Positions 29,553 through 55,757 of a stretch of 64,000 bases of DNA are shown here, piece by piece. Origin of the DNA: Planctomycetota bacterium (GTDB taxonomy: Bacteria; Planctomycetota; Planctomycetia; Gemmatales; Gemmataceae). A model generated the notes under the pieces. It saw only the letters and a program-made list of their open reading frames with translations, searched no databases and was not told the origin of the DNA. The position numbers and the translations under genes were made by a program. Within the stretch, counting starts at the first letter, position 1; each line of letters opens with the position of its first letter. Location of the stretch: assembly GCA_016872605.1 (NCBI GenBank), contig VGZI01000005.1, positions 1 to 64,000 on the forward strand, given 5' to 3'.

Positions 29553-29655
29553 AACCCCTCTCCCACTGGGAGAGGGGCAGGGGTGAGGGTGGATGATCAA
29601 GCATTTTTGCGAGCTCAACCCTCACCCCCAACCCCTCTCCCAGAGGGAGAGGGGA
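29553..29655. repeat. CCCCTCTCCC/CCCTCACCCC element, inverted pair
   Basis: Two copies of the element face each other (29553-29590 and 29617-29655). Related sequence is found in frame inside trpC (41185-41229) and inside the two-haem gene (50380-50424). Confidence 0.8.
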
Positions 29656-29828
29656 GTCGTAAACGGGCCGGGTATCACGTCACAACCGTCACGCACGGCG
29701 CACCCGGCAAATCGGTTGTAAATTCCTGTTCCTTTGTTGTTGCACACGCATTCATTGGTGCGTTATAATTTTTCCAAAGGCCCTGCGCGCGTGATCGTCG
29801 CTCCGCCAGGGACCGGAGGTTGGCTCAC

Positions 29829-32018: not shown

Positions 32019-33419
32019 TCACGCCACGATTTCATCAATCACATGCCCGTGCACATCGGTCAGCCGGCGGTCGATGCCATTGTGGCGGAAGATTAGGCGT
32101 GTGTGGTCGATGCCCAAAAGGTGCAGGATCGTGGCGTGGACGTCGTAACAGTAAGTCGAATGCTCGGCAGCGCGGAAGGACCATTCGTCGCTTGAGCCGT
32201 AGGTGACGCCGCCTTTGACGCCGCCGCCAGCCAGCCAGGTCGTGAAGGTGAACGGGTTGTGATCGCGGCCCAAGCTCCCCTGACTGCACGGCATCCGGCC
32301 GAACTCGGTCGTCCACATCACGATCGTGTCGTCGAGCAAGCCGCGGCGCTTCAAATCCTGAAGGAGCGCGGCGGTCGGGCGGTCCATGCTCGTGCCCATG
32401 TCGTAGTGATCGCGTTCGAGATGTTCGTGCGAATCCCAATTGCGGCGGGGGAAGCCGTTGTCGGCGCCGGACCAGACTTGCACGAAGCGGACGCCGCGCT
32501 CTAATAGACGACGCGCGATCAGGCAATGGCGGCCGAACTCGGCGGTGATCGGCTGATCGAGCCCGTAAAGCCGCTGCGTCTCGCGCGTTTCGCCCGAGAT
32601 GTCGAGCACTTCAGGTGCGCTGAGTTGCAAGCGGGCGGCAAGCTCGTAGGTCTGAATCCGGCCCTCAAGCCGCGTGTCGCCGGGACGCGTCTCGGCGTGG
32701 CGACGGTTCATCTCTTGCAGCAGACGCAGGCCGTCCCGTTCGCTATCGGGGGTGATGTAGGTGTTCGGGCCGGGGAAAAGATCGAAGATCGGATTGCGGT
32801 CGCTCGGGCGTATCGTCGTACCCTGGTTGCTGGCGGGGAGGAAAGCGCTCGACCAGTTGGCGGGGCCGTTCGGAGCGTAGCCTCGCGAATCGGGGATGAC
32901 GACGAACGCGGGGAGGTTGTCGGTCATCGAGCCGAGGCCATAGGTGATCCAGGCGCCCATCGAGGGGAAGCCCGGCAGTACGAAGCCGGTGTTTTGCATG
33001 AAGGTGGCCGGCCCATGCACGTTGGAGCGTGACACCATCGACGGGATGAAGGCGATGTCATCGACGCAGGAAGCGATGTGAGGCAGGAGATCGCTGATCC
33101 ACTTGCCACACTGGCCGTGCTGCCGCCAGCGCCACGGCGATTGCATGACGTGGCCAGGGTTGGACTGAAACAGTTCGACGCGTCCGCCCGGATCGAACGC
33201 CTGCCCGTTGCGCCGAATGAGGGCCGGCTTGTAATCGAACGTGTCGCATTGGCTCGCGGCTCCGGACATGAAGAGTTGGACGACGCGCTTGGCCGGCGCG
33301 TTAGCCCGACGCGCAAGCGAGGGAGTGTGTGCGAGGAGCCCGTCATCGCCCAGCAGCGCCGCGAGCGCAATGCCGCCCAGGCCGCCGCCGTACTGCCAGA
33401 GGAAATCGCGACGATTCAT
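32019..33419 (-). CDS. DUF1501 secreted protein
   Basis: The 466-residue protein starts with a Tat-like signal (MNRRDFLWQYGGGLGGIALAALLG), then typical DUF1501 segments: QLFMSGAASQCDTFDYKP, DDIAFIPSMVSRSNVHGP, ARRLLERGVRFVQVWSG, TIVMWTTEFGRMP and GRDHNPFTFTTWLAGGGVKGG. DUF1501 is related to the alkaline-phosphatase/sulfatase fold. In planctomycetes it is usually paired with a DUF1549/DUF1553 cytochrome-like gene, which is absent here. Start 33419 begins at the signal motif. Confidence 0.92.
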   Translation of the reverse strand: MNRRDFLWQYGGGLGGIALAALLGDDGLLAHTPSLARRANAPAKRVVQLFMSGAASQCDTFDYKPALIRRNGQAFDPGGRVELFQSNPGHVMQSPWRWRQHGQCGKWISDLLPHIASCVDDIAFIPSMVSRSNVHGPATFMQNTGFVLPGFPSMGAWITYGLGSMTDNLPAFVVIPDSRGYAPNGPANWSSAFLPASNQGTTIRPSDRNPIFDLFPGPNTYITPDSERDGLRLLQEMNRRHAETRPGDTRLEGRIQTYELAARLQLSAPEVLDISGETRETQRLYGLDQPITAEFGRHCLIARRLLERGVRFVQVWSGADNGFPRRNWDSHEHLERDHYDMGTSMDRPTAALLQDLKRRGLLDDTIVMWTTEFGRMPCSQGSLGRDHNPFTFTTWLAGGGVKGGVTYGSSDEWSFRAAEHSTYCYDVHATILHLLGIDHTRLIFRHNGIDRRLTDVHGHVIDEIVA

Positions 33420-39541: not shown

Positions 39542-40549
39542 TGGCAAACGAATCTGCACGACGCGGCCGACACGCGCGACGTGCAGGCGTCCCGGGAAAT
39601 CGCACGCCGACGCTCTGCCCATTGCAATCTGTGCCAAGCGTTGCCAGCGGTCGTAGTCCATGTCGCCCATCGGAAAACTCTCGCGCTGCCAGACCAGCCG
39701 AAATATTGCGCGAACATCGTCCACTGGGGCTTTCTCAAGAACTATCGCCGACAACACGAGGACGTCCTTCGCCCGAGGCAATTCGGCTTGCTCCAATAGG
39801 GCTTCCGCACGTTGCGATTCTTCCGTGGCAAGGCCTCGGCATTGGTCGGCCAGTCGGCAAAGTACGTCGACAATCGCCGGATTGTACTCTTCCGTCAAGC
39901 GAGGCAGCAAATCAAGACGCAGCCGATTTCGCATGAAACGCATATCGGCGTTGGATGAATCAATGCGATACGTGATCCGTCGGTCTTGCAGGTACTGTAG
40001 GACATCGGCACGGCGAACAGAGAGCAGCGGCCGAACGAGCGACACGGTCACGTCGAGCGGTCGGCATTCGGTCATGCCGGAGAGCCCTTGAACGCCGCTG
40101 CCACGCAACAAGCGAAACAACACCGTCTCCGCCTGGTCGTCGGCCGTGTGTCCGACGGCGATCCAGGCCGCTTGTTCTTGGACCGCGAGTTCGGTGAGCC
40201 AGCGATAGCGCTCGCGTCGGGCTACGCCTTCGAGGTTTTCTCGCTCGGCCTCGGCAATCGTCGCGACGGCGATTCGCGTTGTGACGCAGCGAATGCGCGG
40301 CGTGTCGGCGAGGTTCCAGGCCATCGGGAGGTCCTGGACGAACGCTTCGTCGCCGTCACTCTCGTCGCCGCGCAGTTGATGGTTGATATGAGCCAACGTG
40401 AGTCGCGGAAGTGTGCCAGATCGCAAGAGGTCGGCGCACACATGCGCCAGCGCCACGCTATCGGGTCCGCCGGAAACGGCGACGATGCCGGGCGATTGAC
40501 CGTGGCCATGGCGCTGTAGGCACTCGGCAACGTGTACGGATAAGGTCAT
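39524..40549 (-). CDS. tilS: tRNA(Ile)-lysidine synthetase
   Basis: The 341-residue cytoplasmic enzyme attaches lysine to C34 of the CAU-anticodon isoleucine tRNA, changing it to read AUA. The PP-loop is VAVSGGPDSVALAH (residues 26-31 core), followed by HINHQLRGDESDGDEAFV and WIAVGHTADDQAETVLFRLLRGSG. The ATG at 40549 overlaps the trpC stop (ATGA), so it is coupled to trpC. The C-terminal SEPEA and stop come from a dispersed repeat. Length is on the short side for the family, consistent with a reduced C-terminal domain. Confidence 0.93.
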   Translation of the reverse strand: MTLSVHVAECLQRHGHGQSPGIVAVSGGPDSVALAHVCADLLRSGTLPRLTLAHINHQLRGDESDGDEAFVQDLPMAWNLADTPRIRCVTTRIAVATIAEAERENLEGVARRERYRWLTELAVQEQAAWIAVGHTADDQAETVLFRLLRGSGVQGLSGMTECRPLDVTVSLVRPLLSVRRADVLQYLQDRRITYRIDSSNADMRFMRNRLRLDLLPRLTEEYNPAIVDVLCRLADQCRGLATEESQRAEALLEQAELPRAKDVLVLSAIVLEKAPVDDVRAIFRLVWQRESFPMGDMDYDRWQRLAQIAMGRASACDFPGRLHVARVGRVVQIRLPSEPEA

Positions 40550-41373
40550 CCGTTGCCTCGCAGTTCGCGCAGCTTTGCGCCAATGTCATCGGAGCGCATA
40601 AACGTCTCGCCGACGAGCACTGCCTTGACGCCGGCGGCCTCGAGTCGCTCCATGTCGGCCCGTGTTCGGATGCCGCTCTCGCTCACACAGCAGCACTCTG
40701 CGGGAATGCTCTCAACGAGTTCCAGCGTGTGGTCGAGGCTGGTCACGAACGTGCGCAGGTTGCGATTGTTGATCCCCACGATTTTTGCGCCGGCATCGAG
40801 CACTCGTTGCAGATTTTCGCGATCGTACAACTCGACGAGCGCTTGCATGCCGAGGTCATGGATCTGCGTCAAGAGCGCCGGGAGTTCGCGAGGGCCGAGG
40901 ATCTCGGCAATCAACAGGACGGCATCGGCGCCGGCGACGCGGGCTTCGATCACCTGGTAGGCATCGACAATGAAGTCCTTGCGCAGCACCGGCGGCGCGA
41001 CCGCTTGGCGAATCGCGGTCAGATACGACAAGTGTCCCTGGAAGAAGGGCTCATCGGTGAGCACGCTGATGGCGTCGGCGCCATTGGCTGCGTAGATGCG
41101 GGCGATGGCGACCGGATCGAAGTCGGCCCGCAACACGCCGGCGGAGGGCGACGCCTTCTTGACCTCGGCGATGATCGCGAGTTTTCCGCGCGCCCCTTGT
41201 GGGAGAGGGGTCAGGGGTGAGGGGGACATGCCCCGTTCGAGGGCGGCGCGGAAGTTGCGCACCGGCGGAGCGATCGACAATCGCGCCTCCAGGTGAGCAA
41301 CCGGAGTGGCGTCTCGGCGACGCTCTAGGTCCCGCCGCGTTGAAATCACGATGCGTTCGAGGATGTTGTTCAT
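40546..41373 (-). CDS. trpC: Indole-3-glycerol phosphate synthase with repeat-derived insertion
   Basis: The 275-residue TIM-barrel enzyme closes the indole ring in tryptophan synthesis. IIAEVKKASPS, VLTDEPFFQG, VLRKDFIVDAYQV, GADAVLLIAEIL, IVGINNRNLRTF and VSESGI are clear TrpC motifs. Residues 49-63 (MSPSPLTPLPQGARG) are encoded by a dispersed repeat and are absent from ordinary TrpC. They lie before the first beta strand, so the barrel core is kept. ATG 41373 begins at the conserved N-terminus. It is coupled to tilS; no other trp genes are nearby. Confidence 0.93.
   Translation of the reverse strand: MNNILERIVISTRRDLERRRDATPVAHLEARLSIAPPVRNFRAALERGMSPSPLTPLPQGARGKLAIIAEVKKASPSAGVLRADFDPVAIARIYAANGADAISVLTDEPFFQGHLSYLTAIRQAVAPPVLRKDFIVDAYQVIEARVAGADAVLLIAEILGPRELPALLTQIHDLGMQALVELYDRENLQRVLDAGAKIVGINNRNLRTFVTSLDHTLELVESIPAECCCVSESGIRTRADMERLEAAGVKAVLVGETFMRSDDIGAKLRELRGNG
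41185..41229. repeat. In-frame CCCTCACCCC/CCCCTCTCCC element inside trpC
   Basis: The minus strand reads CCCCCTCACCCCTGACCCCT followed by CTCCCACAAGGGGCGCG, the same kind of sequence as the intergenic pair at 29553-29655. It adds 15 residues (45 bases) to TrpC without changing frame. Confidence 0.8.
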
Positions 41374-41405
41374 ACAAAACGACTTTGCCGCCGCGTGGTG
41401 TTCCG

Positions 41406-41455
41406 CCTCTTCGTTTAGCGTTCGCACGGCGCCACGCGGGCGCTAAACGAAGAGG
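41406..41455. repeat. CGTTTAGCG/CGCTAAACG palindrome, copy upstream of trpC
   Basis: A 50-base palindrome with ends CCTCTTCGTTTAGCG and CGCTAAACGAAGAGG and a GCGCC centre. Near-identical elements lie at 51896-51942, 53576-53620 and 55709-55757. It sits in the divergent gap between trpC and the CPBP gene. Confidence 0.85.
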
Positions 41456-41489
41456 CTGTTACTCATGTTATCCGAAAAAAAGGATCGCC

Positions 41490-45698: not shown

Positions 45699-45819
45699 TC
45701 GCGACTCCTTGTGCGGACGACGAGCCCCGAGCGCCAGCGAACGGAGCCTTAGATTCATGATACAACAAGATGCACATCGCGATTGAGATCCCGCGCAAAC
45801 CGGCAGAGCGTAATAACCG

Positions 45820-47745: not shown

Positions 47746-50700
47746 TCATTGTCTTGCAACCGAGATCGTCCGCACGATACGTGATTCGTTCCCCTGGCGA
47801 TCGCGAACGGAAACGGTCAGCACGCCGCGCGGCAATTCCGTCACTGACGTCGTCAGGCGGTATTCCCAGACGCCCTGGTTGACGGCCTTGAACTTTGACG
47901 CCAAGTTCTCGCCCGGCTTGACGCCGTCGATCGCGAAGTCGGCCGTCACCGTGAACGACTTCAGGTCGAGCCCGGTGTCGTAGTCGTGCATGCCGATCAG
48001 AATGCGATCGAGCTTGGCGTTGACGTTCGGCGTCGGAGACGTCACGGTCAGCGTCGGACGATTATCATCGAGCATCCAACCATAGCCTCGCGCTTGGGGC
48101 GTGGCGGGATCGTAATCCAGGTCGATCGGACAGCCGAGATCGATCCAGCGAACGAACGTGCGTTTCTCTTCATCCGACAGCGGCGGGACCTTGCCGTCGG
48201 GCGGCGGACATTGCGGCGGCAGGTAATCGAGATCGGCGAGGTTGCGATTCTGCGGCGTGTTCGCGACCGGCTGACCTTTCAACATCAGCGTGTTGGCGTC
48301 GCCGGGGACCTTTTCGGTCGGGAAGTCGTCGTTCGAAAAGCCGTCGAGACGTTCGCCGTAGATTTTCCAAATCAGCATGCTGCGGCGTGACTGGAACTCG
48401 CGGATGTAGCGCGAGGCGTTGGTCTGCCGCCATTGCCCGTTGTGGATCACCGGCTTGTGGCCGAACTTGGCCTCGCGGTCCATGGCGAGGCGATAGTACG
48501 TCCCCGGAACAGCGGGCCGATTGGACACGGGCATGACCTTGTCGTCATCGAGCACTAGCTTGGCGGGCGGGTTGGCGGACTTCTGCGTGTGGCAGGCGGC
48601 GCAGCTGCGATCGAGCAGCGGCTTGATGTCTCGGTGGTATTCGACGTTGACAACGTGGCTTCCTCCCCCCGCTGACGAGGGAGGCACGCCGTAACGCAAT
48701 CCGGTCTCGTTCTTGCCGTCCCAGCGCTGCTTCGATTCGTCCTTCGCTTTCGTCGTCAACAGCGGCGCTTTCGTGGTCAGGTCGAAGATCGGATAGTCCT
48801 TTTTGGCTGCGGCGGTTGCAGAGAACGGCGTGGGGTGCTGGCTGTGGGCGTGGCAGCCGCCGCAGTCGTTGCGGATTTCGCCGGGGCGGACTTGATGCCA
48901 GGTCTGGGCCATGTTGAGCACCATGCCGCGTTTGTCGAGCGTCTGGAAGGTGAAGGCGACGTCGGCAGGGATCTTGGCGAGGAAACTGGTATCGGGATTG
49001 CCATCGGGATCGAGCAGTTGCTTGCCGTCTTGGAAGTGGCGTAGCGGAATCTCGCCCAGGATGCGCAGGCGTTCCTGGGCGTGGCTGAAGAAGCGTCGGC
49101 CCGCCTTGTAGCCTTGCTGGCGATCGGTCGTCGGCTCCATGACAAGAATGCGAACGGCATGGATGTCGTCGTTCGAGTATCGTCCGGCGTCGGCGCCTTG
49201 GTTGACCCAGTTGAGCGACGCGCCATTCTCGGAGGTGTTGAACGGATCGAGCCCTTCGTAGCCGCCTTTCTTCTTGCCCATGTAGGTCGCGGTGACGCTG
49301 CCCTGGGGGACGCCGCCGCCCGGATAGCTCTCGCGCTTGTAGAAGCTCGAGGTCCCGATGAGGCCATAAGGCGTGCCTTCGGGCAGATGTTTCGACAGCT
49401 TGCCGTCGTTGGCGAGGCGGGTGAGGTTCGTCGGCTCATCGACGCCGAAGATGCGTTTGTATGGCACGACGGCGCGAGGCCATTGCTCGTTGAACTTCGG
49501 GTCGTTCTTAATGAGGCGCATCTGAGCCGGTTCGTCGATCGGCTTGCCGTCCTTGATCAGATAGATGCCGCCGTCGGGCATCGGGTAGTGAGCGTATTGA
49601 TGATTGGCGGGGCCGGGCGTGTAGCAGGTGAGTAGATGGTTGTCGGGAGCGCCGGACGGATGGGTGAACTTGCCGACGGCGGGCGAATCCTTCTGATCGC
49701 GCACGGAGGGGTCCGCCGGGCCTTCGCCGAAGTTGGCGAAACGCGTGAACGACTCGATGGCGTACGGGCTGAACGGCAGCCGCGAGTACTTGCCGCGACC
49801 GTTGGAGAACCGCCCATTGCGCAGCGGCGGGTTGCGTTCATCGCCTTGCCAGGCCGGGCCGAACGCTGGCGGCATGCGTTTGGCTACGTACTCCGCATCG
49901 TAGCTTTCCGAGCGCGGGCGAGGCAGCTTGTAATATCCGCCGAAGCCGCTGTTGTTCTGGTTGTAGTATTCTTCCGCGATGATGTGCTCGCTCGATATCT
50001 GCGTCTGGAAGTGGAACGCGTTCGGCGCTCCTTCGCCGGGCAGTAGGGCGCTCAGCACCGGCCCCCAGTTTGTGCCGTCCGGGTTGATGATCCACAGGCC
50101 CCACAGAATCCCCGAACGCAATCCTTGCGATTCAAGCGAGCTGAAAATGACGCGACCATCTTTCAGGACCACCGGATGCAAGGCCATGCCAATGTTGAGA
50201 TGGCCGATCATTTCTACGTTCTTGCCGTCGTCGTCCATGACGAAGAGTTGCAACGTCGGCGACGGATGCTTGGGCGGCTTGAAGGCGTTGCGGTTCGACG
50301 TGAAGATCAATCGCCCGCCGGGCAGCGGGCACGGTCCCATGTTCAAGACGCCGTAGTTGAGCCAGGTCGTGTCCTTCTCCTTCACCCTCACCCCCGGTCC
50401 CTCACCCGGAGCGCGAGGGGAGAGCATGCCGCTCGACCACTTCGCGGCGCCAAGGTTCGGCGTCCATGCTTGGTGCGTGAGCTGGACGATCTTCTTCGTC
50501 CTGACGTTGATCTTGAAAATGTCCGCGCCTTGATACGGCGGCTGCCCGTGCTGGCTCGTGCCTTTGAGTCCCTTGAGGTGCGAATAGTACACCCATTGGC
50601 CGTCGAATGAGACGTAGGGATCGGTGACCGAGCCGTCGATGCCGCCTTCGACGAGCAACTCTTCGCTGCCGTCCGGATGCAGGAGCATCAGATCGCCTTG

Positions 50701-50940
50701 CGGATCCATGATGGCAGGATGAGCGATCTCGGTCCATTTGCTGCTCGCTTTATCGCCCTTGCGCGGCGTGCGGACGTAGACGATGTCGTAATCGTACTTG
50801 ACGCTCTTGTCCGTCGAAATGTGCGGCACCTTGACGTTGATCGGATCGAGGAACAACTCCTCTTTCTTCTGCTGCGAAACCGCGGGCAGTCCGGCGATGG
50901 CGGCCAATGCCAGAGTGAATGCCATGTAGCGAGCGTTCAT
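47746..50940 (-). CDS. Large secreted PD40-propeller protein with two c-type haem motifs
   Basis: The 1064-residue protein has a signal peptide (MAFTLALAAIAGLPAVS). A propeller with PD40-type blades occupies about residues 50-450 (DPYVSFDGQWVYYSHLKGLKG; GGRLIFTSNRNAFK). Haem motifs are CGGCH near residue 691 and CAACH near 778. The layout resembles the alpha subunit of hydrazine synthase and its relatives in non-anammox planctomycetes. Activity is unknown; no oxidoreductase partner is adjacent. A repeat-derived insertion encodes LSPRAPGEGPGVRVK (173-187), and VPPSSAGGGSHVV near 756 may be a second. Confidence 0.82.
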   Translation of the reverse strand: MNARYMAFTLALAAIAGLPAVSQQKKEELFLDPINVKVPHISTDKSVKYDYDIVYVRTPRKGDKASSKWTEIAHPAIMDPQGDLMLLHPDGSEELLVEGGIDGSVTDPYVSFDGQWVYYSHLKGLKGTSQHGQPPYQGADIFKINVRTKKIVQLTHQAWTPNLGAAKWSSGMLSPRAPGEGPGVRVKEKDTTWLNYGVLNMGPCPLPGGRLIFTSNRNAFKPPKHPSPTLQLFVMDDDGKNVEMIGHLNIGMALHPVVLKDGRVIFSSLESQGLRSGILWGLWIINPDGTNWGPVLSALLPGEGAPNAFHFQTQISSEHIIAEEYYNQNNSGFGGYYKLPRPRSESYDAEYVAKRMPPAFGPAWQGDERNPPLRNGRFSNGRGKYSRLPFSPYAIESFTRFANFGEGPADPSVRDQKDSPAVGKFTHPSGAPDNHLLTCYTPGPANHQYAHYPMPDGGIYLIKDGKPIDEPAQMRLIKNDPKFNEQWPRAVVPYKRIFGVDEPTNLTRLANDGKLSKHLPEGTPYGLIGTSSFYKRESYPGGGVPQGSVTATYMGKKKGGYEGLDPFNTSENGASLNWVNQGADAGRYSNDDIHAVRILVMEPTTDRQQGYKAGRRFFSHAQERLRILGEIPLRHFQDGKQLLDPDGNPDTSFLAKIPADVAFTFQTLDKRGMVLNMAQTWHQVRPGEIRNDCGGCHAHSQHPTPFSATAAAKKDYPIFDLTTKAPLLTTKAKDESKQRWDGKNETGLRYGVPPSSAGGGSHVVNVEYHRDIKPLLDRSCAACHTQKSANPPAKLVLDDDKVMPVSNRPAVPGTYYRLAMDREAKFGHKPVIHNGQWRQTNASRYIREFQSRRSMLIWKIYGERLDGFSNDDFPTEKVPGDANTLMLKGQPVANTPQNRNLADLDYLPPQCPPPDGKVPPLSDEEKRTFVRWIDLGCPIDLDYDPATPQARGYGWMLDDNRPTLTVTSPTPNVNAKLDRILIGMHDYDTGLDLKSFTVTADFAIDGVKPGENLASKFKAVNQGVWEYRLTTSVTELPRGVLTVSVRDRQGNESRIVRTISVARQ
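48658..48690. repeat. Possible in-frame palindrome in the two-haem gene
   Basis: CCTCCC and GGGAGG form a six-base stem around CCCGCTGACGA. It is read as PPSSAGGG just before the second haem motif. No second copy is seen in the window, so this is tentative. Confidence 0.35.
50380..50424. repeat. In-frame CTCACCCCC repeat inside the two-haem gene
   Basis: CACCCTCACCCCCGGTCCC followed by TCACCCGGAGCGCGAGGGGAG matches the type of repeat in trpC and at 29553-29655. It adds 15 residues to the protein within the propeller. Confidence 0.75.
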
Positions 50941-51895: not shown

Positions 51896-51942
51896 TTTTC
51901 GTTGAGCGCTCGCATGGCGCCGCGCGAGCGCTAAACGAAATC
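51896..51942. repeat. GCGCTCGC/GCGCTAAACG palindrome after dtd
   Basis: CGTTGAGCGCTCGC faces GCGAGCGCTAAACG around a GGCGCC centre, directly after the dtd stop. It belongs to the family at 41406, 53576 and 55709. Confidence 0.8.
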
Positions 51943-55708: not shown

Positions 55709-55757
55709 CTCTTCGTTTATCGTTCGCATGGCGCCACGCGGGCGCTAAACGAAGAGG
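55709..55757. repeat. CGTTTATCG/CGCTAAACG palindrome after the CAT-type gene
   Basis: CTCTTCGTTTATCGTTCGC faces GGGCGCTAAACGAAGAG; only a few bases differ from 41406-41455. It starts three bases after the stop. Confidence 0.85.

Follow-up and report, generated by a model that had tools for sequence, protein, structure and literature searches.

Palindromic repeats that form part of coding sequences have been described mainly in Rickettsia and Wolbachia, together with some intragenic REPs elsewhere. Rickettsia palindromic elements (RPEs; Ogata et al. 2000, 2002) are located between genes as well as in frame inside conserved genes; the classical elements are 105 to 146 bp long, 19 intragenic cases have been reported, and for one host protein, Gmk, both translation and activity have been demonstrated (PMC2229807). 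REPs of the GTAG/CGTC type, which are defined by their GTAG/CGTC tag, occur singly or as inverted dimers, and some of them lie inside conserved genes; intragenic REPs are known in many species, and Xanthomonas recB, in which different REPs are found at approximately one site, provides a direct precedent for the sharing of sites reported below (PMC3733652). Nematomorpha mitochondria carry inverted repeats inside protein genes that are long, perfect, and apparently maintained (PMC6649704), and the byp elements of Magnusiomyces mitochondria are skipped in translation (cited in PMC6649704).

The locus described here lies in a 64,000-nucleotide stretch (the window) of a planctomycete genome of 6.7 Mb, available as a fragmented assembly of 372 contigs. 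The window includes a trpC gene that contains a copy of a dispersed repeat, which is referred to here as family A. The relevant features are as follows.

40546 to 41373, minus strand: trpC, indole-3-glycerol phosphate synthase, 275 aa, start codon ATG at 41373.
41185 to 41229, minus strand: inserted codons 49 to 63 (MSPSPLTPLPQGARG), repeat-encoded, not found in any of 40 aligned relatives, modeled as a loop with low confidence.
41201 to 41223, plus strand: exact family A core within trpC, GGGAGAGGGG-TCA-GGGGTGAGGG.
29553 to 29656: intergenic BIME-like pair of oppositely oriented family A copies, approximately 29 bp apart.
29568 to 29589, plus strand: first core of that pair.
29619 to 29641, minus strand: second core of that pair.
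50385 to 50423, minus strand: fourth family A copy of the window, imperfect (90%), in frame.

The gene was identified by Pfam (IGPS; E value, 1.8e-84) and by the NCBIfam TrpC equivalog NF001377 (312 bits; cutoff, 260), and it was the sole TrpC match in a genome-wide search of the source genome. Residues M49 to G63 are the exact product of the minus strand at 41185 to 41229. The first-pass annotation, which had attributed 15 residues of TrpC to a repeat, was therefore correct on the encoded residues, but the net gain is 14 residues (42 bp; FRAALERGMSPSPLTPLPQGARGKLAIIAEVKK here versus FRAALERGPNLGVIAEVKK in congeners). It was also right that the insert is a multiple of three without stops, given the stop-free, in-frame translation and the net 42 bp, and that its DNA matches the repeat at 29553 to 29655, where the core recurs in both orientations. 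The outer hairpin arm of the trpC copy has partly decayed, and the stretch SPSPLTPLPQGAR is part of the loop sequence. An inverted repeat of 52 bp (GCCTCTTCGTTTAGC...GCTAAACGAAGAGGC) is located at 41405 to 41456, just upstream of the trpC start; near-identical copies at 55709 to 55757, at 51898 to 51939, and on other contigs identify it as a further dispersed palindrome.

TrpC was searched for in 59 relatives, of which 55 had a match, and the resulting alignment contained 41 rows (i.e., the source genome and 40 relatives). The residues attributed to the repeat were found in none of the 40 aligned relatives, even in congeners with as many as 111 and 174 copies of family A, and most of the aligned sequences had just 4 or 5 residues separating FRAAL from (I/V)IAEVKK. 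The first-pass annotation had named the presence of these residues in relatives lacking the repeat as refuting its interpretation; this was not observed, and the interpretation is supported. The nearest other insertion was detected at the same site in a congener (G006) and corresponds to a different palindrome. Residues E70, K72, K132, E181, N202, and S233, which match the known IGPS catalytic set, were invariant in the 41-row alignment. An AlphaFold2 model based on this alignment had a mean pLDDT of 94 overall and of approximately 60 for residues 51 to 60, and its best structural match was the Pseudomonas IGPS 6y88 (Z, 40.4; rmsd, 1.2 over 262 residues). In the model, helix alpha0 ends at residue 49 and strand beta1 starts at residue 66, and the insert is predicted to be a flexible linker from helix alpha0 to beta1, preceding the N-terminal end of beta1. 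The catalytic residues of (beta/alpha)8 barrels are located at the C-terminal ends of the strands. An earlier suggestion that the insertion lies beside the active-site entrance is unsupported, because the predicted secondary structure puts the insert before beta1 and the catalytic residues would be at the opposite strand ends.

Family A was searched for with the core pattern GGGAGAGGGG-N0-6-GGGGTGAGGG, and the reversed pattern served as a control. We detected 97 exact copies genome-wide versus 0 for the reversed control, bearing out the earlier view that the repeat is dispersed in the genome; the core was also absent from 100 dinucleotide shuffles of the window. The exact pattern undercounts the family, as it missed the 90% copy at 50385 to 50423, which is read as LSPRAPGEGPGVRV within a 1064-aa open reading frame (ORF; 47746 to 50940, minus strand). 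The aligned copies yielded the consensus TCCCCTCTCCC-n-GGGAGAGGGG-nn-GGGGTGAGGG (n, a few bases; nn, two or three), i.e., a unit of approximately 37 to 45 bp composed of a hairpin and then a G-rich tail. Most copies had 10-bp hairpin arms, and they were arranged singly or as inverted pairs approximately 50 bp apart. Four G-tracts are present on the G-rich strand (GGGAGAGGGGCCGGGGGTGAGGG), a pattern that matches a G-quadruplex motif.

In a sample of 392 genomes from the phylum, 26 contained family A. The copy number was 3 to 174 in congeners, reached 305 in a member of another genus of the family, and was 0 in many other genomes, and this patchy occurrence suggests a mobile rather than a fixed sequence. 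One genome from another family of the same class (G412) contained 166 copies, and nearly all sampled members of its family contained none, which hints at a recent gain or transfer of family A.

TrpC is one case of many, and the first-pass annotation missed how widespread these insertions are. We analyzed 96 distinct family A copies with their surrounding regions, calling ORFs by codon periodicity rather than by full annotation. About half of the copies (50/96) were located inside ORFs with clear codon periodicity. The hosts, as identified by Pfam and NCBIfam, include leucyl-, alanyl-, and glutaminyl-tRNA synthetases (LeuRS, AlaRS, and GlnRS), citramalate synthase, PurH, PurL, RimO, MqnC, lipoamide dehydrogenase, DNA polymerase X (PolX), a PfkB kinase, and several DUF1553, DUF1549, and DUF1501 proteins. 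The citramalate synthase gene (L012) was also considered as LeuA; this assignment was rejected, and the name is that given by NCBIfam. In about two dozen genes, by our own count, a single Pfam match was split by family A. Congeners had empty in-frame sites in PurL, PolX, lipoamide dehydrogenase, PfkB, a GFO/IDH enzyme, and TrpC. In-frame N-terminal copies at two loci (L014 and L161) may be in 5' leaders and were left out as evidence. To assess frame keeping, we compared the coding phases of both flanks, ignoring stops inside the element. The phase was kept across 36 of the 38 copies for which both flanks were coding on one strand (one-third expected; P of approximately 2e-15). This is a mark of translation under selection and argues against skipping or RNA removal.

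Some host proteins carried family A at recurrent positions. In four DUF1501 proteins (L162, L190, L195, and L198), the copy was near the N terminus and in each case a short distance ahead of the domain match, suggestive of a single permissive linker common to the DUF1501 paralogues. In four DUF1553 (PSD1) proteins (L013, L154, L200, and L183), it followed the motif (D)(W/Y)LA(V/L)(E/T)F, apparently at the same place. AlaRS (L016, 1480 to 1600) contained a whole inverted A-A dimer in frame (approximately 30 residues), adjoining the conserved EFCGGTH motif.

At the site of the insert, the TrpC linker of G006 contained FRAALVNPSLSASEGLAGPFAGAQARTAELSVIAEVKK, which is encoded by an unrelated, almost perfect 57-bp palindrome with 26-bp arms. 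As a probe for this insert, the pattern GAGCCTNNNGCNNNAGCGAGGG gave almost no matches; the full palindrome revealed a second dispersed family (family B), with 45 to 85 matches listed per genome (both strands counted) in six congeneric genomes. Short and weak matches to the family B palindrome were present in the window at 2014 to 2035, 33311 to 33323, and 45723 to 45741. A third palindrome (family C), with 29-bp arms, was found in the AlaRS of G006 and is also dispersed, with approximately 80 matches (both strands counted) in G006 and the source genome. Of 15 genes with family A in the source genome, the following 4 have congeneric counterparts in which another palindromic family occupies the A site.

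TrpC: family B in G006.
Citramalate synthase: family A in the source genome; a family B palindrome occupying that loop in G001.
AlaRS: A-A inverted dimer in the source genome; family B in G001 and G002; family C in G006.
PEP-utilizing enzyme: family B at the A site in G001.

Two or more species had family A itself at a common site in LeuRS (the source genome, G002, and G006), RimO, MqnC, an FAD/Fe-S protein, and GlnRS, and some of these copies may be inherited. Another LeuRS insert, QRAGSVSDGLS (G003 and G005), is family B-like and was left out of the same-site count because its DNA is no longer palindromic. Elsewhere in the same stretches, there were two or three clear palindromic insertions. 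A rough binomial calculation of the same-site excess (6/9 at a p of 0.05 to 0.1) gave 1e-6 to 6e-5, for events that are few, were sorted by us, and may lack independence (e.g., the AlaRS family B cases of G001 and G002 may be one event).

Most probably, a selfish, nonautonomous family A palindrome entered trpC in frame, was translated as a flexible loop, and was kept by a selective filter. The 45-bp insert is a copy of a nonautonomous dispersed palindromic repeat and would be translated as a flexible Pro/Gly-rich loop from helix alpha0 to strand beta1. Family A would spread for its own sake, and copies that shift the frame or disturb the fold would be lost to selection; the copies surviving in genes would thus be stop-free, net multiples of three, and located in length-tolerant loops. 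Passage of the unrelated families B and C through the same filter would account for insertions recurring in the same loops across species. The copies presumably move as selfish DNA, the putative mover being an HUH/Y1 (RAYT-like) transposase or similar machinery, and the insert is probably neutral for TrpC. Among eight Y1_Tnp (HUH) matches, none was directly bordered by family A; one had a copy approximately 1.2 kb away, and the other seven had no copy in the flanks examined. The copy that moves family A may be absent from the fragmented assembly. With respect to MITEs, which have terminal inverted repeats with target-site duplication, family A has hairpin and inverted-pair forms, but its net insert lengths vary and a target-site duplication could not be established.

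The repeated use of the same loops may be more than loop tolerance by itself can explain. We tentatively consider, with somewhat less than even confidence, that three or more unrelated palindromic families have repeatedly settled in the same loops of the same housekeeping enzymes in related species via a shared insertion preference or mutual replacement; if this is true, the shared loops are standing entry ports for selfish DNA that rewrites protein surfaces. That the loop sharing reflects targeting or exchange of elements rather than selection alone appears rather unlikely; in this reading, the machinery that moves families A, B, and C would favor particular DNA targets, or one palindrome would take the place of another at an occupied site by recombination. 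Such targeting or exchange would fit the presence of another family at the A site in 4 of the 15 genes with few clear palindromic insertions elsewhere, the rough binomial values, and the similar ends of families B and C (AGCCC...GGGCT). However, inspection by eye found no common target sequence at the shared sites, the events are few, possibly nonindependent, and sorted by us, and tolerant loops are rare per protein, so that a selective filter could yield the same picture. Loop tolerance combined with selection is the simplest cause of the loop sharing.

It is improbable that the inserted peptides were recruited for a function (e.g., tuning enzyme stability or interactions). From one species to another, the insert varies in its sequence, its reading frame, and its family, most orthologues are without it, and it is modeled as a floppy loop, even if single-copy enzymes of biosynthesis and translation have retained copies and three genomes share family A at the LeuRS site. 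Bypassing is known elsewhere (PMC6649704), and the elements form stable hairpins within conserved genes; the hairpin might thus be skipped in translation, as byp elements are, or cut from the RNA, giving a protein without the insert. This appears very improbable, since skipping would demand neither frame keeping nor a stop-free element, whereas the phase is kept across 36 of 38 copies, and the sole element frame with a TGA cannot be used. Scarcely credible is an assembly artifact or a chance G-rich expansion in place of an inserted repeat: the assembly is fragmented, but the 97 copies have a fixed consensus, phase keeping is exact, and the same or other palindromes occur at the same sites in independent assemblies.

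With in-frame entry and selective filtering of a selfish palindrome as the preferred reading, family A in dozens of enzymes and unrelated repeats in the same loops indicate that these loops tolerate spreading DNA, which becomes protein. A free-living phylum now shows coding palindromes in dozens of genes per genome, including those of aminoacyl-tRNA synthetases and purine enzymes. Congeners in which a loop is empty or filled by family A, B, or C constitute a natural experiment on insertion-tolerant protein sites, and the same loop variants inform how selfish DNA becomes protein sequence.

In-frame palindromes are already known from RPEs and intragenic REPs. What appears new to the literature searched is the occurrence in this phylum, the count of affected core enzymes, and the use of shared loops by three families; our search, which included the core letters, returned unrelated matches only and no paper naming the repeat in planctomycetes, a result that does not show that none exists. 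Unlike the palindromes of Nematomorpha, family A is short, dispersed, and, in trpC, decaying. It resembles REPs in comprising short palindromes that occur singly or as inverted dimers and are in part intragenic, and it differs from them in that the ends of the aligned copies have no GTAG or CGTC tag. No RAYT gene was located beside family A among the eight Y1_Tnp matches, but the gene that moves family A may lie outside the assembled sequence. The closest likeness in description is to RPEs, which are likewise palindromic, dispersed, and present in intergenic regions as well as in frame within conserved protein-coding genes. Because its length is outside the range of 105 to 146 bp, we do not file family A as an RPE but regard it as working like one. 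Family A differs from RPEs in its length of approximately 37 to 45 bp, its G+C richness, its occurrence in Planctomycetota, and its approximately 50 likely intragenic copies in one genome, as well as in the two further families that use some of the same loops in its congeners.
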